Shown here one piece after another: positions 19,282-27,091 of a stretch of 64,000 nt of DNA. The notes under the pieces are model-generated. The model saw only the letters and a program-made list of their open reading frames with translations, was not told the origin of the DNA and ran no database searches. The stretch's first letter is position 1. Each line of letters starts with the position of its first letter. Both the position numbers and the translations under genes were made by a program. The stretch is from Actinoplanes oblitus (GTDB taxonomy: Bacteria > Actinomycetota > Actinomycetes > Mycobacteriales > Micromonosporaceae). The stretch covers positions 8,627,501-8,691,500 of the forward strand of contig NZ_CP126980.1 in the NCBI RefSeq assembly GCF_030252345.1, written 5' to 3'.

Positions 19282-20715
19282 ATGCATCGATCTCTCGCCG
19301 TCGTGGCGCTGGCCGCGACGGTCGCGTGCCCGGCTTGCACGGATGACCAGGCGAAACCCGCGGCCTCGGCCGCGCCGTCGGTCGCCCCCGCCGCCGATTA
19401 CTCGGCATGGCGGGCCGGCCGGTCCACCCCGGTCGCCGACACGCTCTACCCGGAGCACGGCAATTCCAGGATCGACATTCTGGCGTACGCCCTGAAGCTC
19501 GACTGGCGGCCCGCGGAGAAGCTGCTCACCGGTACCGCGACGATCCGCCTGCGCCCGGTCGCCGCGGCCACCGAGATCAGCCTGGACTTCGCGCACCTGA
19601 CCGTCGACAAGGCGACCGTGGACGGGGCACCGGCCACCTTCGCCGTCGCCGGGCAGAAGCTCACCGTCCCCGCCACGCTCGTCGCCGACCGGCCGGTCAC
19701 CCTGGTGGTCGACTACCACGGCACCCCCGAGCAGGTCAGCTACCCATCGCATCGCGACGACGCCAAGGAGGGCGTGGGCCTGCGCCCCGCCACGACCGGC
19801 GGCGCGTGGACCATGCAGGAGCCGTGGGGCGCGATGACCTGGTACCCGGCCAACGAACTGGTCTCCGACAAGGCGCTCTACGACATCGCGGTGACCGTCC
19901 CGGCGGGCTGGGCCGCGGCGGCGAGCGGCACGCCCGGGCCGGTCGAGGGCAACACGTACCACTACACCTCGACGGTTCCGGTCGCCGCCTACCTGACCAC
20001 GCTGGCCGTGGACAGGTACCGGAAGGTGACCCAGACCGGCCCGCACGGGCTGCCGCTCACCTACTGGGTGCTGCCGAAGACCGACGACAAGCTGCTGCCG
20101 TCGCTGAAGAAGTCGCCGGAGATCCTCACCTGGCTGGAGCACAAGCTCGGCAGGTACCCGTTCGAGACGGCCGGCGTCCTGATGAACGGCTCGGCCTCGG
20201 CCATGGAGACCCAGCAGATGCTGAGCATGGGCCGGTCGCTGAAGTGGGAACCGCCCTTCTTCGAGGAGACCCTGGTCCACGAGTACGCCCACCAGTGGTT
20301 CGGCGACGCGGTCACCCCGAGCACCTGGACCGACCTCTGGCTCAACGAGGGCTTCGCGCAGTACATCGAGTTCCGGTGGGAACAGGAGCTGCGGAAGTTC
20401 AGCGACGCCGACCTGGAGCGCTTCCTGCGCCGGCGGGACGCCGAGCTGCGCGAGAAGGTCGGCCCGCCCGGCAAGCCGAAGGCCGCCAACTTCGCCGAGA
20501 GCAACGTCTACGTCTGCGGCGCGGCGATGCTGAAGGAGCTGAACGACGCCCTGGGCGACGCGAGGTTCTTCGCGCTGATGCGGGCGTGGGTGGCCGAGCA
20601 CCGGGGGACCAGCCAGGACCGGGCGGCGTTCGTCGCCTTCGTCGGGACGAACACCGGCAAGGACTTCAGCAAGCTGATCGACGCCTGGCTGGATTCCCCG
20701 AAGACCCCGGAGTAG
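19282..20715 (+). CDS. M1-family metallopeptidase, exported
   Basis: The 477-residue protein has an N-terminal signal peptide with a lipobox-like Cys (TVACPACTDD), so it is probably secreted or lipid-anchored. The zinc site is complete: HEYAH at 333-337 and the third ligand Glu356 in WLNEGFAQ. The aminopeptidase substrate motif region reads SAMETQ rather than GAMEN, a variation I recall in actinobacterial M1 proteins. The beta-sandwich N-terminal domain is present, and the C-terminal domain is short compared with PepN (about 850 residues). It should remove N-terminal residues from peptides outside the cell. It diverges from gatB and is followed by the Crp/Fnr gene. Confidence 0.9.
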   Translation: MHRSLAVVALAATVACPACTDDQAKPAASAAPSVAPAADYSAWRAGRSTPVADTLYPEHGNSRIDILAYALKLDWRPAEKLLTGTATIRLRPVAAATEISLDFAHLTVDKATVDGAPATFAVAGQKLTVPATLVADRPVTLVVDYHGTPEQVSYPSHRDDAKEGVGLRPATTGGAWTMQEPWGAMTWYPANELVSDKALYDIAVTVPAGWAAAASGTPGPVEGNTYHYTSTVPVAAYLTTLAVDRYRKVTQTGPHGLPLTYWVLPKTDDKLLPSLKKSPEILTWLEHKLGRYPFETAGVLMNGSASAMETQQMLSMGRSLKWEPPFFEETLVHEYAHQWFGDAVTPSTWTDLWLNEGFAQYIEFRWEQELRKFSDADLERFLRRRDAELREKVGPPGKPKAANFAESNVYVCGAAMLKELNDALGDARFFALMRAWVAEHRGTSQDRAAFVAFVGTNTGKDFSKLIDAWLDSPKTPE

Positions 20716-20769
20716 GTACGGAGATCCGGGCTTGTCGGCACCCCCGATCATCCACGATCATGACTCGAT

Positions 20770-21447
20770 GTGAGTGATGAGGCACGGAGAGTCGCCCCCT
20801 CGATGGCGTCCTGGTCCACCGCCGACTGGACGGCTCTCGTCGAGTGCGGCGTCCGCCGTTCCTTCCGGCCCGGCCAGCACCTGCTCCGCCAGGGCGAGGA
20901 GGGCAGCTGGGTCGCCGCGCTCCTGCACGGCAGGGTCCGGGTCACCTACGCCGCGGCACCCGGTCAGGAGATCCTGCTCGCCGTTCGCGGCCCGGGAGAC
21001 CTGCTCGGCGAGTTCGGGTACGGCGACCGCGAGCCTCGCTCCGCCTCCGCGCTGGCGCTCGAACCCTGTGTCGCCAGCCTGGTCACCGACCAGCGCTTCA
21101 CCGCCTGGCTCACCACCCGGCGCATCCGTGCCCACCTGGACCGCTACGTCCTCGCCAAGACGCGCGAGGCGGCCGACCTCGCGTGGCGGCTGACCAGGTG
21201 CCGGCCCGCCCAGCGGCTGGCCGCGCTGGTGCTGACCATCGTCGCCGCGGACGGTGCCCGGTCCGGTCCCGCGACCGTACCGATGTCGCAGGCCGAACTC
21301 GCTGAGGCGATCGGGGTGGCGCGCAGCTCGGTCACCCCGATCCTCGCGGACTGGAAGGCTCGCGGGCTGGTCGCGATCGAGCGGTCGCACATGACGGTCC
21401 TGAGCCTCGACGCGCTGCGCCGGGAGCGAACGGCACCGGACATGTGA
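20770..21447 (+). CDS. Crp/Fnr-family transcriptional regulator
   Basis: The 225-residue protein has a cyclic-nucleotide-binding-type beta-barrel (about 20-115, with FRPGQHLLRQGEEG and GPGDLLGEFGYG), a dimerisation helix, and a Crp-type winged helix (MSQAELAEAIGVARSSVTPI, about 172-191, as recognition segment). The phosphate-binding cassette reads GEFGYGDREPRSAS, close to the GE-x6-RSA pattern of cNMP binders, so nucleotide binding is plausible. Start GTG 20770 has no clear ribosome site. It lies 103 bases upstream of the cyclase-like gene on the same strand and is the natural regulator or receptor of that cassette, which is inference from position. Confidence 0.88.
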   Translation: MSDEARRVAPSMASWSTADWTALVECGVRRSFRPGQHLLRQGEEGSWVAALLHGRVRVTYAAAPGQEILLAVRGPGDLLGEFGYGDREPRSASALALEPCVASLVTDQRFTAWLTTRRIRAHLDRYVLAKTREAADLAWRLTRCRPAQRLAALVLTIVAADGARSGPATVPMSQAELAEAIGVARSSVTPILADWKARGLVAIERSHMTVLSLDALRRERTAPDM

Positions 21448-21471
21448 CCGGCGACCCACTCCCCGCGATGT

Positions 21472-21485
21472 GTCCAGATCTGGAC
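21472..21485. promoter_or_regulatory. 14-bp perfect palindrome upstream of the cyclase-like operon
   Basis: GTCCAGATCTGGAC is fully self-complementary. It lies in the 103-bp gap between the Crp/Fnr gene and the cyclase-like gene, 65 bases before the ATG at 21551. It is a good candidate operator for a dimeric regulator, possibly the Crp/Fnr protein encoded just upstream, although it does not match the E. coli CRP consensus. Confidence 0.5.
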
Positions 21486-21550
21486 CTTCCGTACCCGGCC
21501 GCGTGCCGACCATCGAGGTGAACCGATCAGCACTACGACTGGAGGAACCG

Positions 21551-22453
21551 ATGCTGGAGCAGGAGCACGCGGAAGCCGGCGGCCTTCCCGACCTCACCGC
21601 GATCATGGTGGTCGACACCGTGAAGTTCAGCCGCCACAACGATCCCCAGCAGGACGAGCTGGCGGTGCTGATCCCGGAGGTGCTGGAGGAGGCGTGCGAC
21701 CGCGCCGGGCTCGAGGACCTGTGGGCAGCCAGACAGTTCCCGGACAGCACCGGTGACGGCTACCTGATCGGCTTCGCGCCCGGTTTCCTGATCCGGGTCG
21801 TCGACCGGTACTTCGACGCGTTGCAGGAGGCGCTGAGGGCACGGGTGCCCCGGCTGCGGGCCCGGAACATGCGGCTGCGGCTGCGGCTGAGCCTCGACGT
21901 CGGACCGGCCCGCCGGCTCGGCGACCCGCGGGTCGGCTCGCCGGTCGGCGCCGCGATGATCGGCACTCATCGGCTCGTCGACGCCCGGCCGCTGCGGGCG
22001 CTGCTGGAGCACTCCGACCCGGACGTCACCCTGCTCGCCGTGGCGCTGTCCGACCGGGTGATGACCGACGTGGTGGCCGCCGGGCACACCCGCCGGCACG
22101 TCGCCTCCGAGTTCGCACCCTGCCGGCTGGACATCGCCGAGAAGGACTTCAGCGCCACCGCGCACCTCTACGTGCCGGCCCTCTCCGGCGACATCCTGCG
22201 GCACGGCCTGCTCGGCGTCCTCGACCGGCCCACCACCGATCCGGAACCGGCCCCGGCGCCCCGGCCGCCCCGCCAGCCGCGGGCCCGCGGCGGCGTCGGT
22301 CAGGTCGCCGGGCGCGGCAACGTGGTGGCCGGCCGGGACGTCGACAATGTGGTGGCCGGCCGGGACGTCGACCGGTCCCGGCACGACACGACGGTGCACG
22401 GCGACCAGTACACGGCGCACCGTGACATGTCGATCCGCCGGGACGCGCGATGA
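21551..22453 (+). CDS. class III nucleotidyl cyclase-like protein with C-terminal Gly/Asp-rich assembly motif
   Basis: The gene encodes 300 residues from ATG 21551, chosen for the GGAGGA site 4 bases upstream. Residues about 12-215 resemble a class III nucleotidyl cyclase domain: MVVDTVKFS carries the first metal-binding Asp (D22), DSTGDGYLIGF the second (D69), and a LSLDVGPA strand follows. The transition-state Arg is kept (R141), but the partner Asn position is Ile137, so activity is uncertain. After a Pro-rich linker, residues 250-295 hold a nine-residue tandem repeat (NVVAGRDVD twice) and then VHGDQYTA. That pattern recurs at the start of the next protein. The stop overlaps the next start (ATGA), so synthesis is coupled. 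A second-messenger signalling role is inference. Confidence 0.8.
   Translation: MLEQEHAEAGGLPDLTAIMVVDTVKFSRHNDPQQDELAVLIPEVLEEACDRAGLEDLWAARQFPDSTGDGYLIGFAPGFLIRVVDRYFDALQEALRARVPRLRARNMRLRLRLSLDVGPARRLGDPRVGSPVGAAMIGTHRLVDARPLRALLEHSDPDVTLLAVALSDRVMTDVVAAGHTRRHVASEFAPCRLDIAEKDFSATAHLYVPALSGDILRHGLLGVLDRPTTDPEPAPAPRPPRQPRARGGVGQVAGRGNVVAGRDVDNVVAGRDVDRSRHDTTVHGDQYTAHRDMSIRRDAR
22319..22372 (+). repeat. 27-bp tandem duplication inside the cyclase-like gene
   Basis: Two adjacent 27-bp units (22319-22345 and 22346-22372) differ at one base. Each encodes the nine residues NVVAGRDVD, so the assembly motif has expanded in frame. A related DNA word (GCCGGCCGGGACGTCGA) occurs again near the start of the next gene. 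Confidence 0.85.
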
Positions 22454-24501
22454 CCGCGCCGGACGACTGGCCCACCGAGCCACCGGACCCGGACGCCGGC
22501 CCGGAACCCGCGGATCCCGGCCCGGAGCCCTCCGTCCACGCCGGCCGGGACGTCGATCAGAGCGTCAACCGGACCTGGGTGCACGGCGACCAGTACACCG
22601 CCGAGTCCATGACGATCAACCACAGTGTGGTCACCCAGCAGGTCACCAGCATCATGCGGAGGCGGCACACCAGCGCGCCGACCCTCGCCGAGCAGGTACG
22701 CCACTACGTTCCCCCACCCGGCCTGGACGAGTGCGTGAGCCGGCTGGCCACCGGACGGTCCCTGGTCCTGCTCTGCCCCGGCGGCGTACCGCGGAGCGGG
22801 CAGCGCGCCGCCGCCGCGTACCTCATCCACCGCCTGGACCGGTTCCGGGCGGCGGCCGAACACCTGAGTTTCCAGGAACCCCTGCTCGACCGGGACGACG
22901 AGGCGGCGGACGCGCTGCGCGACGCCAAGGACGTCGGGCTCTACCTCAACGTCGCCGACCTGGACGACGGCCCCGACGCGGTCGACCGGCTGCGCCAGTT
23001 CGGGGTGCTGGAGGACGGTCTCCCGGAGACGGGTGCGTACGCCGTCCTCGCGGTCTCCGACCGGCTCGCCGAGGAGGCGGAGAAGTACTTCCCCGGCCGG
23101 CTGCACCGGTTGCGCCGGCCCAGCGCCGAAGCGGTCTTCCGCTCCTGGGCCGCCGAACTGCCCGCACCACTGCTCGACGCTCTCACCAGCCACCCGTGGA
23201 TCCGCGAGAACCTGCGGGGGAAATGGCCGCCGGACGCCGCTGACCTGGCGAAATTCGCCGTCCGGGCGTACCGGGCCGGCGTGCGGGAGCCGGCCGGGCT
23301 GGTGCGACAGGTCGAGGGCGCCTCGACGAACTGGCGGGACCAGGCGCGCAACGACCTGCAGCGCTACGGCAGCGCTCCGCAACGTGCCCTGCTGCTCGCC
23401 GCGGCGATGGTGGAGGGCGCGGAGCCGGCCACCGTGGTGGCCGCCCGGGACCTGCTGCTCGACGTCGCCGGGCGCACCGCCGAACTGCCCAACGCGCTGG
23501 AGCGCACCGACGTGGTGACCGAGCTGCAGGCCCTGCGGGAGACCACCTTCGACACCGGCACGAGGGAATTCGCCCGTTCCGGCTACGGCACCTCGGTGCT
23601 CCACCTGGCCTGGCGGGACTATCCCGGCCTGCGGGACGTCCTGCTGCGCTGGCTCGGCCGGCTGCCCTCGGTCCTCGGCGCGGACCCGGCCGGCATCGGC
23701 GAGCTGACCAGCCGGATCGTCGCGCTCTCCGCCGAGGAACGGTCCGACCAGATCGCCTGGCGGGTGACGCGCGAGTGGGCCACCGACCGCCGGCTCGGCA
23801 CCACCGGTTCGGTGGCCGCGATCCTGCTGCTGCGCGACGCCTGCCTGCACCCCCGGATCGGTGCGGACAGCAGGCGCCGGGTGTACCAGCACGCGTACTG
23901 GACGCGGTCGCCGGCCGCCTTCCGGGTGGTCCTCGCCGAGGCGGTCGGCGCTTTCGACAGGTCGCACCAGACCACCGCGATGACCCGCCTCAAGCATCTC
24001 GCCCGGAGCCCGGAGGACGAGGTGCGAGCGGCGGTGACCCGGGCGGCGACGCGCCTCGCCCGGGACACCGGCATGAGCCTCGACCAGCTCCTGAGCTATC
24101 TGACCGGCTGGCTCTCCGCGGCGGAGGCCCGCCGCTGCGAGGTCGCCGCCGCGGTGGCGACGCAGGTGCTGGCGGGACCGGACGGCGACACGCGGATCAG
24201 GCCGGCCGCCGGCTCCCTGCGGTTCTGGCGGGCGGCGCTCGGCACCCTGTCACCCGCGACCTCGGCCGCCCTGATCCGCGGCTGGCTCCGCTCGGCCGGT
24301 CCGCGCGGACCGGACCGGGTCATCGCGATCGGGATGCTGCTCGACGCCGCCGGGAACGACGTCCGCCGGCTCGGTCAGCTGCTGTACGCCGCCCGGTCGG
24401 GGCCCGGTGCCGACGAGGAGATGGACGACCTCTACCGGCACGTACGACTACAGCTCGGCAAGACCTTGGCACCACCGTCCCGGACCGGCTCGGAGGCTTG
24501 A
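22450..24501 (+). CDS. large protein with shared assembly motif, degenerate P-loop and helical repeats
   Basis: The 683-residue protein begins within the previous stop (ATGA). Residues 1-30 are acidic and Pro-rich. Residues 31-58 hold AGRDVDQS...VHGDQYTA...MTI, nearly the same motif as the C-terminus of the cyclase-like protein. Residues about 103-235 look like a STAND-type NTPase core: hydrophobic strand SLVLLCP, then GGVPRSGQR where a P-loop would be, then LYLNVADLDD as Walker B-like strand and AVLAVSDR as sensor-1-like strand. The P-loop Lys is Gln and the Ser/Thr is Arg, so nucleotide hydrolysis is unlikely. The remaining roughly 440 residues are alpha-helical, HEAT/ARM-like. I recognise no effector enzyme domain. 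It may be the scaffold or receptor arm of a signalling assembly. Confidence 0.7.
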   Translation: MTAPDDWPTEPPDPDAGPEPADPGPEPSVHAGRDVDQSVNRTWVHGDQYTAESMTINHSVVTQQVTSIMRRRHTSAPTLAEQVRHYVPPPGLDECVSRLATGRSLVLLCPGGVPRSGQRAAAAYLIHRLDRFRAAAEHLSFQEPLLDRDDEAADALRDAKDVGLYLNVADLDDGPDAVDRLRQFGVLEDGLPETGAYAVLAVSDRLAEEAEKYFPGRLHRLRRPSAEAVFRSWAAELPAPLLDALTSHPWIRENLRGKWPPDAADLAKFAVRAYRAGVREPAGLVRQVEGASTNWRDQARNDLQRYGSAPQRALLLAAAMVEGAEPATVVAARDLLLDVAGRTAELPNALERTDVVTELQALRETTFDTGTREFARSGYGTSVLHLAWRDYPGLRDVLLRWLGRLPSVLGADPAGIGELTSRIVALSAEERSDQIAWRVTREWATDRRLGTTGSVAAILLLRDACLHPRIGADSRRRVYQHAYWTRSPAAFRVVLAEAVGAFDRSHQTTAMTRLKHLARSPEDEVRAAVTRAATRLARDTGMSLDQLLSYLTGWLSAAEARRCEVAAAVATQVLAGPDGDTRIRPAAGSLRFWRAALGTLSPATSAALIRGWLRSAGPRGPDRVIAIGMLLDAAGNDVRRLGQLLYAARSGPGADEEMDDLYRHVRLQLGKTLAPPSRTGSEA

Positions 24502-24502
24502 C

Positions 24503-25279
24503 ATGTTGCGTTATTTCCAGCAGATGGCGGACGGTCTGCGGGAGGCCGAGGAGCCCGCCCGCTTGCCGCCGCCACCACCCTCGCAGCCGAACCTCACCGT
24601 CCAGGTGGAGAGCCGCGACGCGTGCTTCCCCTTCGAGGTGCGGCTCCTCGTCCGCTACGCGGTGCTCGATCACGCGGTCACCGAGAATCCGTTCGCCGTG
24701 GCGACGGCCGGGGTGCTCCGCCGGGCCCGGACGGTCGCCCGTGACCACAAGATCACCGAGACTGTCCTGCTCAGCGGCGAACTCGAGATCGCGTTGAGCA
24801 AGCGGCTCGAGGTGGACGCGACGGGCGTCGTCGCCTGGGCCTCCTGCCTGCAGGTCTCCGCCAACGAGCAGTTGCGCGAGGCCGTCTGGCGTTACGAGGC
24901 GCTGCGCCGGCAGGAGACGATGCGGGTCTGGAGCCGCGAGGCGGAGGAGGCCGAGATCGCCTACCTCGGCCGGCTGCTCGACGACCCGTCCCGCGCCACG
25001 GCCTGGTGGTTCCGCCGGAATCCGGAGGCGATCCAGCAACTGCCGGAGATCGCCCGGACCTTCAAGGCGCTGCGCGCGGAACTGGCCGGGAGCGACGACC
25101 TCGGGACCGGCGACGGTGGCGACGGCTGGGACGGGATCTTCGCGGATTTCCAGCGCCGGGCCGATCCGGCGGCGCGGCTGCTCCTGGCCCATCAGCTGCA
25201 CCAGGTCTTCGTCGAGCATCAACTGGCGGACCTCGCGGATCGGGCCCGCCTGCTCGACGGGAATCCGCCCGTCCGGTGA
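24503..25279 (+). CDS. small SPFH-like protein, third gene of the cyclase cassette
   Basis: The gene encodes 258 residues from ATG 24503, one base after the previous stop, with GGAGG 6 bases upstream, so it belongs to the same operon. There is no signal peptide or membrane segment. After a polyproline stretch, residues about 29-160 alternate beta strands and helices (FEVRLLVRYAVLDH, then LSKRLEVDATGVVAWASCLQ). A charged helix follows (REAVWRYEALRRQETMRVW), an order that resembles the SPFH/band-7 fold. The C-terminus is an acidic Gly-rich linker and one more helical segment. The SPFH resemblance is my judgement and needs a structure search. Function unknown. Confidence 0.65.
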   Translation: MLRYFQQMADGLREAEEPARLPPPPPSQPNLTVQVESRDACFPFEVRLLVRYAVLDHAVTENPFAVATAGVLRRARTVARDHKITETVLLSGELEIALSKRLEVDATGVVAWASCLQVSANEQLREAVWRYEALRRQETMRVWSREAEEAEIAYLGRLLDDPSRATAWWFRRNPEAIQQLPEIARTFKALRAELAGSDDLGTGDGGDGWDGIFADFQRRADPAARLLLAHQLHQVFVEHQLADLADRARLLDGNPPVR

Positions 25280-25285
25280 CGGATG

Positions 25286-25318
25286 GTGCCGGCGCGACCT
25301 TCGGGGTCACGCCGGCAC
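25286..25318. terminator. bidirectional hairpin between the cassette and gatA
   Basis: GTGCCGGCG-C-GACC pairs with GGTC-A-CGCCGGCAC around a TTCGG loop (13 pairs, one mismatch). It separates the end of the cassette (25279) from the convergent end of gatA (25326). Confidence 0.7.
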
Positions 25319-25325
25319 TCCGGTC

Positions 25326-26789
25326 TTACAGCGCGGGCGGGGTCAGCGTGCCGACCGCCGACTCCAGCGCGCCGGCGACCCGGTACATCCGGTCGTCGGC
25401 CATGGTCGGGGCCATGATCTGGAAGCCGACCGGCAGCCCCTCCGACAATCCGCACGGGACCGAGATGGCCGGGCCGCCGTACAGGTTGGTCGGGATGGTG
25501 AACAGGTCGGCCAGGTACATCTGGTACGGGTCGCCGGTCCGCGAGCCGAACGGGAAGGCGACGAACGGCGTGGTCGGCGAGACCAGCACGTCCACCTTCT
25601 CGAAGGCGGCTTGGAAGTCGCGGGTGATCAGGGTGCGGACCTTCTGCGCCTGACCGTAGTACGCGTCGTAGTAACCGCTGGACAGCGCGTACGTGCCGAT
25701 GATGATCCGGCGCTTGACCTCGGGACCGAAACCGGCCTCGCGGGTCAGCGACATGACCTCCTCGAGCGAGCGGCTGCCGTCGTCGCCGGAACGCAGGCCG
25801 TACCGCACGCCGTCGAAGCGGGCCAGGTTGGAGGAGGCCTCGCTCGGGGCGATCAGGTAGTAGGCCGGCAACGCGTACTGGAAGTGCGGGCAGGACACCT
25901 CGACGATCTCGGCGCCCAGTTTGACCAGGGCCTCCAGCGACTCCTGGAACGCGGCGAGGACGCCGGGCTCGGAGCCGTCGCCGGCGAACTCCTTGACGAT
26001 GCCGAGCTTGACGCCGGTCAGGTCGCCCCGCAGGCCCTGACGGGCGGCGGCGACCACGTCCGGCACCGGCTGGGCGATCGAGGTGGAGTCACGCGGGTCG
26101 TGACCGGCGATCACCGCGTGCAGCAGGGCGGTGTCCTCGACGGTACGGCCGCACGGGCCCGGGGTGTCCAGCGACGAGGAGAAGGCGATCAGCCCGTACC
26201 GCGAGGTGCCGCCGTAGGTGGGCTTGGCGCCGACGGTGCCGGTGACCGCACCCGGCTGGCGGATCGAGCCGCCGGTGTCGGTGCCGATCGCGAGCGGCGC
26301 CTCGTAGGCGGCCAGGGCCGCGGCCGAGCCACCGCCCGAGCCGCCCGGGATGCGACCGAGGTCCCAAGGGTTGTTCGTCGGGCCGTACGCGCTGTACTCG
26401 GTCGACGAGCCCATCGCGAACTCGTCCATGTTGGTCTTGCCGAGGATCGGCATCCCGGCGGCCTTGAGGCGCTCGACGATCGTCGCGTCGTACGGCGGCT
26501 TCCAGCCCTCGAGGATCTTCGACGCGGCGGTGGTCGGGATGCCCTTGGTGGTCACCACGTCCTTCACCGCGATCGGCACCCCGGCCAGCGGCCCGGTGAT
26601 CTCGCCGCTGTCCACGCGCGCCGCGGCGGCCAGCGCACCCTCGCGGTCCACGTGCAGGAACGCGTTGACGCGGGACTCGACGGCCTCGATGCGGTCCAGG
26701 TGAGCGGTCGCCACCTCGACGGCGGAGACCTCCTTCGCGTCGAGCAGGCTCCGCAGCTCGACCGCGGTCTTCCTGGTCAGGTCGCTCAC
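25326..26789 (-). CDS. gatA: aspartyl/glutamyl-tRNA amidotransferase subunit A
   Basis: The 487-residue protein is the glutamine-hydrolysing amidase subunit of GatCAB. The amidase-signature catalytic triad region is intact: Lys in [12 protein letters not shown], cis-Ser and Ser nucleophile in [10 protein letters not shown]...[12 protein letters not shown]. The start is GTG 26789, two bases after the gatC stop, with GAGGA inside the end of gatC. Normal length. It works with the gatC product immediately upstream and the gatB product made about 6 kb away. Confidence 0.97.
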
Positions 26790-26791
26790 GA

Positions 26792-27091
26792 TCAGTCCTC
26801 CTCGTCCAGGATGCGCGGCACCCGGAACCGGCTCTCGTACGCGTCGGGCGCCCCGGAGAGGGCGGCGTCCTGCGTGAGGCTCGGCTGGGGAACGTCGTCG
26901 CGGTACACGTTGGTCAGCGGGACCGAGTGCGAGGTCGGCGGAATGTCGTCCGCTGCCACCTCACCGACCCGGGCGACCGATTGCAGGATCACGTCGAGCT
27001 GTCCCGCGAATCGATCGAGCTCCTCTTCGGTCACGGCGAGCCGCGACAGGCGCGCCAGGTGCGCTACCTCTTCGCGGGAGATGGCGGCCAT
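26792..27091 (-). CDS. gatC: aspartyl/glutamyl-tRNA amidotransferase subunit C
   Basis: The 99-residue protein starts at ATG 27091 ([20 protein letters not shown]), chosen because family members begin here and GAGGGGG precedes it; an in-frame upstream ATG at 27127 would add a non-family leader. The segment [21 protein letters not shown] and the C-terminal RDDVPQPS are characteristic of GatC. It is the small belt subunit that holds GatA and GatB together, and is transcribed with gatA. Confidence 0.95.

Follow-up and report, generated by a model that had tools for sequence, protein, structure and literature searches.

What would a class III cyclase-like protein do in an operon with a Crp-type regulator, a P-loop protein and an SPFH-like protein, and what would switch it on? 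The question is raised by a four-gene cassette of Actinoplanes oblitus that lies in a stretch of 64,000 nucleotides (positions 8,627,501-8,691,500 of the 9.8 Mb one-contig genome; hereafter the window), and that a sequence-only reading had taken for an undescribed signalling cassette. We now read the four genes, here called CRP, CYC, MID and SPFH, as a receptor-gated, Pycsar-like nucleotide-signalling operon and a conflict module, probably anti-phage and abortive-infection-like, and we give this reading an even chance of being right. Conservation of the unit, a motif paired between CYC and MID, the folds of MID and SPFH homologues, replacement of the cyclase gene by a TIR gene, linkage to the effector PycTM and an operator-like site were all computed; motif templating, cyclase activity, the identity of the cyclic nucleotide, the trigger and the role in defence are what we infer.

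20770 (GTG start) or 20803 (ATG start) to 21447, + strand: CRP, a Crp/Fnr-type regulator (Pfam)
21551-22453, + strand: CYC, a class III cyclase-like domain with a C-terminal motif tail (profile match to Ma1120, conserved residues)
22450-24501, + strand: MID, a predicted STAND/NLR-like P-loop protein with a helical C-terminal solenoid and a degenerate Walker A motif (homologue model, Foldseek)
24503-25279, + strand: SPFH, a predicted SPFH/Band-7-fold protein (homologue model, Foldseek)
25286-25318, no strand: hairpin, bidirectional and terminator-like, between SPFH and gatA (folding energy)

The cassette recurs as a unit

All four genes lie on the + strand; the start of MID overlaps the end of CYC through ATGA, SPFH begins 1 bp past MID, and the hairpin 3′ of SPFH has a folding energy of -33.8 kcal/mol (z -4.8). 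The cassette is flanked by gatB and a peptidase M1 gene on one side and by gatA on the other; Pfam identified these genes as GatB, peptidase M1 and Amidase (gatA). Layout and flanks are therefore as the sequence-only reading had described them. Nothing in CYC, MID or SPFH of the window scored above a curated cut-off in Pfam or NCBIfam.

Among 121 Micromonosporaceae genomes searched, MID was found in 16, CYC in 45 and SPFH in 20. The order and strand of CYC, MID and SPFH were the same in 20 of the 20 loci with strong matches that were fetched, a set that leaves out one strong CYC match (the second copy in G093), and a Crp gene lay upstream in 19 of them, L084 being the exception. Three shorter loci (L037, L039 and L040) read CRP-CYC-MID up to their ends. 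In a wider scan of one genome per species, profiles recovered all four genes in 15 of 49 named loci, CRP-CYC-MID in 14, and a partial set or nothing in 3. The remaining 17 were scored as CRP only, which is a filter artefact: of the five inspected, L125, L133, L147 and L150 carried CYC, a MID-like gene and a third gene consecutively, and L156 did not. The third protein of Streptomyces-type loci is a distant profile relative of SPFH. Class-wide, 58 of 296 genomes had a match to the MID profile with E no higher than 0.001; many of these matches were weak. The plasmid collection gave five distant CYC-like matches and zero MID matches, and so no good evidence of plasmid carriage.

The gatA gene was present in 60 of 60 Actinoplanes genomes. 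When the gatB-gatA interval was read in 20 Actinoplanes relatives, the cassette was there in three (L202, L204 and L207) and not in the other 17. The nearest relative, with gatB 99% and gatA 97% identical, reads gatB-M1-gatA; this site without the cassette supports the earlier suggestion that an accessory block was inserted between gatB and gatA. L204 has the cassette in the same place as the window, while L202 and L207 have it on the opposite side of M1. Identity is 48-78% for the cassette proteins, compared with 91-94% for gatA and gatB.

Its absence from this site in 17 of 20 relatives would suit the view that chance brought the genes together between gatB and gatA, or that the insertion there is inert. 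We regard this as very improbable: the same order and strand are kept in many genera and positions, a motif is shared between neighbouring proteins (see below), and the recurrence itself refutes it. The genes were found together in different genomic places and not only singly, and domain searches placed none of them in an unrelated housekeeping family.

As a separate observation, the gatB-gatA interval (19303-27091 in the window; L196-L215) varies across Actinoplanes, being empty, holding M1 alone, or holding M1 and the cassette in two orders. It is possibly an insertion hotspot.

The CYC tail and the MID head carry a matching motif

22289-22450, + strand: C-terminal tail of CYC, in which the NVVAGRDVD and VHGDQYTA motif is repeated (against this tail, the own MID head comes first among 37)
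22531-22632, + strand: N-terminal head motif of MID, VHAGRDVDQSV...VHGDQYTA, which matches the CYC tail

Both window proteins bear VHGDQYTA, and the tail/head motif differs by locus: in L071 it reads GNVFSGDVTTGEGGTVNAFGGDQHNN and GNVFHGEVSTGEGGTVNAFGGDQHNN, and in Micromonospora-type loci it takes the form N-x-G-Q-V-x-G-x-V-x-G-G-M. We compared tails with heads in 37 non-redundant loci, left from 46 with both parts after known repeats had been removed (43) and redundancy reduced. The mean local score was 68.9 for own pairs, 38.3 for other pairs and 29.3 for shuffled pairs, and none of 20,000 permutations reached the own-pair mean (maximum 50.6). Because clades share motif types, the permutation was also confined to four clades of the MID tree; the permuted mean then rose to 56.4 and the maximum to 64.4, again with 0 of 20,000 reaching the observed value, and each clade taken alone gave p 0.043 or lower. 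Some tail-head alignments take in Pro/Glu-rich linkers, and the last 60 tail residues alone gave the same pairing result. The own head ranked first in 12 of 37 loci and within the top three in 21, and the own-pair score was below 40 in five (L070, L073, L083, L128 and L162). The assembly motif that had been noticed by eye in CYC and MID is thus borne out statistically. As far as sequence can tell, a matching tail/head motif in adjacent genes is the layout of NLR-amyloid signalosomes.

MID resembles STAND/NLR proteins and SPFH a Band-7 protein

Profiles of MID and SPFH returned nothing usable against PDB sequences, and the fold assignments come from models of homologues in locus L163. The MID homologue was modelled with a predicted local distance difference test score (pLDDT) of 82 and a predicted template modelling score of 0.80, and its top Foldseek matches were to NOD2 (best E 4e-5). 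Its head was predicted at very low confidence, as if disordered. Pfam nSTAND3 matched MID homologues just under the cut-off; the window MID itself had no such match. Of 61 CYC-type MIDs, 1 has Lys at the position of the Walker A Lys and 39 have Arg, so the degenerate P-loop described for the window protein holds across the family. Judged by the model, MID is STAND/NLR-like, with a predicted P-loop module and a solenoid of NLR type; the third gene had been called a pseudo-NTPase, which fits its degenerate Walker A motif and is made more specific by the homologue fold. Like STAND/NLR ATPases (NOD2, Avs5, Pfam nSTAND3), MID would have a P-loop module followed by a helical solenoid, but its Walker A Lys is replaced, usually by Arg, and its effector would be engaged in trans through the motif.

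The SPFH homologue (pLDDT 84) matched HflK/C and stomatin in Foldseek with E 3e-4 to 1e-3. This model supports an SPFH/Band-7 fold for the fourth protein, in line with the first impression of it.

A TIR protein can take the place of the cyclase

In 9 of 29 class-level MID loci a TIR-domain gene replaces CYC, and each overlaps MID by 4 bp. Five of the nine proteins were run against Pfam; TIR_2 was over the cut-off in L098, L099, L101 and L102 and just under it in L097. An SPFH-profile match adjoins MID in all nine loci, and six of these third genes, when aligned, matched the SPFH profile with a pairwise E of 6e-23. Tail-head scores of the TIR type averaged 52 versus 39 for mismatched pairs (n = 9, no permutation), and lay above the mismatched mean in seven, L100 and L109 being the others. 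On a quick MID tree the nine TIR loci form one group with two CYC loci adjoining; therefore a single TIR/CYC replacement suffices. We had considered many independent replacements of CYC by TIR and dropped the idea, as the tree needs one change.

In L102 (3417-4211, - strand) the tail of the TIR protein has a sub-threshold match to NACHT_sigma, a fungal amyloid motif (9.7 bits, E 1.2).

The Pycsar effector PycTM adjoins many relatives

PADLOC was run on neighbours of 18 loci (118 of 120 proteins, two very long ones being omitted), and four matched the Pycsar effector PycTM. The other families it reported there, such as mad3, AriA and Cas3 (25 of the 58 were listed), are generic by name and were not used. 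A profile built from five confirmed neighbours placed PycTM next to 21 of 80 cassettes, or 20 of 78 distinct loci, and nine neighbours checked singly were above the Pfam cut-off. Of the 59 cassettes without PycTM, 11 have less than 1 kb of downstream sequence. In Salinispora, Micromonospora, Plantactinospora, Pilimelia and others PycTM directly follows SPFH, in Streptomyces (L144, L158) it follows the third gene, and in Saccharopolyspora and three Streptomyces it stands directly ahead of CRP; for L140 and L143 the placement is by distance only, 2.9 kb after CYC.

The 121 family genomes hold 60 PycTM genes. Of the 25 strong CYC loci, 7 lie within 8 kb of one of them, as do 8 of the 30 weaker loci. 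Under uniform placement, with kinship ignored, the chance of finding seven strong loci so placed is about 7e-16. PycTM also often adjoins other Crp or cyclase-like genes (14 of 30 loci).

Two side observations concern PycTM genes. PycTM of Micromonosporaceae often stands beside a Crp-type gene (12 of 30 loci, L225-L254), which suggests a wider family of Crp-cyclase-PycTM systems. The one PycTM found in the A. oblitus genome (C1:9,599,391, at 9.6 Mb; L246 1468-3132) is divergent from another cyclase-like gene, the product of which ends in VVNNFYGETAAEVIGVQVRHHG, RHIM-like to the eye; the two genes are possibly a second signalling system.

The cyclase domain and its lost Asn

A profile from 19 CYCs matched the PDB class III cyclase Ma1120 weakly and over part of the domain (E 0.004, profile positions 66-157). 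The metal-binding D22 and D69 and the Arg R141 are invariant in 80 of 80 cassette cyclases, a set that includes near-duplicates (L155 and L163 repeat L083 and L085). Four residues ahead of the Arg, 57 of the 80 have the transition-state Asn and the other 23 have Ile or Val; the window CYC has Ile137 and retains Arg141. The residue pattern given earlier for the window protein, with two metal Asp and the Arg kept and the Asn lost, is correct for that protein and not for the family: from the alignment, Asn loss marks the window's lineage and some others. At what we take to be the position of the purine-selecting Lys, none of the 80 has Lys. PADLOC gave no match for P0001, L074 and nine further cyclases, and it was not established whether its library holds a PycC model.

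For the window copy, some points weigh against nucleotide signalling. With the transition-state Asn gone, its catalysis is uncertain, and neither PycTM nor PycTIR adjoins the cassette. The earlier remark that no effector is visible stands for the window, though relatives have PycTM or TIR. The same points favour a different reading, in which CYC of the window lineage is a catalytically dead nucleotide-binding adaptor that MID binds through the motif, the complex serves together with SPFH as a membrane-located sensor or scaffold, and the output is Crp-controlled expression or an unlinked effector; inactive cyclase domains are indeed reported in conflict systems, in the part of Kaur et al. (PMC7159879) considered here. 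However, both metal Asp and the Arg are invariant throughout, also in the 23 proteins with Ile or Val, and the Asn-less L072 and L159-L162 adjoin PycTM, so that Asn loss is not strictly tied to loss of the effector. We consider such an adaptor less likely than a working cyclase, yet for the window copy it is a serious rival. These Asn-less neighbours of PycTM also led us to drop a rule by which a kept Asn would go with PycTM.

The Crp regulator and a candidate operator

CRP matched Pfam cNMP_binding (2.1e-16; cNMP, cyclic nucleotide monophosphate) and HTH_Crp_2 (5e-14), and its phosphate-binding cassette keeps E70 and R79 (numbered from the ATG start). Across loci the pocket has Arg in 69 of 77 and Glu or Asp in 72 of 77.

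21472-21485 (genome 8648972-8648985), no strand: perfect palindrome GTCCAGATCTGGAC, a candidate Crp-type operator/promoter site between CRP and CYC

In 22 of 53 loci a site of the form TGNNCA-N4-TGNNCA, with no more than one mismatch, occurs at a distance of 50-110 bases upstream of CYC, compared with a mean of 0.8 and a maximum of 3 in 200 shuffles. The pattern was picked after the sites had been inspected; loci with a CRP-CYC gap below 85 bp were dropped, and near-identity reduced 59 loci to 53. Most Streptomyces loci do not have the site. The palindrome supports the earlier idea that the regulator acts on the cassette. Genome-wide, GTCCA-N4-TGGAC occurs at 9 sites in all and a reversed-pattern control at 2. 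We do not claim a wider Crp regulon, as most other copies are inside genes or not near a gene start.

One exact GTCCA-N4-TGGAC copy (L220, C1:3764456-3764469) stands between divergent genes, an ABC transporter ATPase-like gene and a second gene. By its sequence it is a possible further target of the regulator.

The Crp-type site and the conserved cNMP pocket would also be at home in an ordinary regulatory module, in which Crp and the cyclase serve development or stress, MID and SPFH are membrane partners, and there is no role in conflict. PADLOC reported nothing of note for CYC, MID and SPFH of the window and assigned no known defence system to them, and the neighbour families listed for the cassettes are mainly ordinary. 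We nevertheless find this reading decidedly unlikely: patchy presence, empty sites, fast divergence, TIR interchange and PycTM linkage are typical of conflict systems.

A model for receptor-gated nucleotide signalling

In the receptor-gated reading, the MID solenoid would sense a trigger and the P-loop domain, with its degenerate Walker A motif, would oligomerise. The MID N-terminal motif would then template, or recruit, the matching C-terminal motif of CYC, as happens in NLR-amyloid signalosomes of fungi and bacteria, and the clustered class III domains could dimerise head-to-tail and produce a cyclic nucleotide. This nucleotide would be read, in relatives, by the adjacent PycTM membrane effector; the Crp-type regulator may read it too, likely binding the palindrome upstream of CYC and tuning the operon. 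SPFH would be a ring or membrane scaffold of the complex, and in other actinobacteria a TIR protein, instead of CYC, accompanies the MID-SPFH pair. We put forward tentatively, as a possibility, the sharper form of an NLR-gated Pycsar: the STAND receptor activates the cyclase by prion-like templating, the nucleotide opens PycTM and informs Crp, a SPFH ring organises the complex, and TIR and cyclase are interchangeable outputs.

If true, the model would unite, in a single compact operon, elements of bacterial immunity that have been described apart: NLR-like receptors, amyloid-type motifs, cyclic-nucleotide effectors and SPFH scaffolds. It would offer a testable answer to how Pycsar-like cyclases become activated. 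TIR and cyclase interchange before the same receptor-SPFH pair, and the coupling rule is therefore testable by motif swaps. It would also provide a way into the many cyclase-like genes of actinobacteria to which no role has been assigned.

Comparison with known systems

The comparisons with Pycsar, amyloid signalosomes and conflict systems refer to the parts of the sources that we consulted. Pycsar systems make cUMP or cCMP and protect against phage. Pycsar consists of a PycC cyclase with PycTM or PycTIR (PMC11224242). The cassette shares with it a class III-type cyclase with two metal Asp, a protein with a cNMP-binding domain in the operon and, in many relatives, an effector of the PycTM family. 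It differs in adding a STAND-like receptor, the paired motif, the SPFH protein and a Crp transcription factor; moreover, the window copy has no adjacent PycTM, and in cassettes TIR and cyclase are alternatives, not partners.

Bacterial amyloid signalosome (BASS) motifs have been reported with BELL, CHAT and TIR domains (PMC7889193, PMC8086366). There too, genes are adjacent or overlapping, a C-terminal motif of the effector matches the N-terminal motif of an NLR-like protein, and TIR effectors are known. In the cassette, by contrast, the effector is a cyclase and not a BELL domain, SPFH and Crp are added, and the motif is likened to theirs by layout. The word "cyclase" does not occur in the consulted text of PMC7889193 or PMC12261475.

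In the conflict systems of Kaur et al. (PMC7159879) neighbouring genes also share a module, and cNMP cyclase and Band-7 domains occur. Those systems have MoxR/vWA, and there is none among the four nearest window neighbours (Pfam: TPR, gatB, peptidase M1, gatA). Their module is a small folded domain, whereas that of the cassette is a short, apparently disordered motif, and the cassette cyclase and SPFH are separate genes.

We found no description of this gene combination in a literature search that left most subscription papers, including Dyrka 2020, outside its reach. The term "undescribed" holds only for the combination of components; the component kinds were already known.

Additional MID-like genes

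In three Streptomyces loci (L137 11238-13422, L147 11152-13447 and L150 11230-13414) CRP-CYC-MID-third gene is followed by a small open reading frame (55-58 residues) and by another MID-like gene. An NTGTVHGGQ-type motif is present in each of the two, giving a bare motif protein plus a receptor. MID-like genes in L092 (3756-4079), L095 (749-1282) and L103 (3477-3902) are preceded by a gene other than CYC or TIR, and the protein encoded by that gene in L103 has a motif-like tail at its end.

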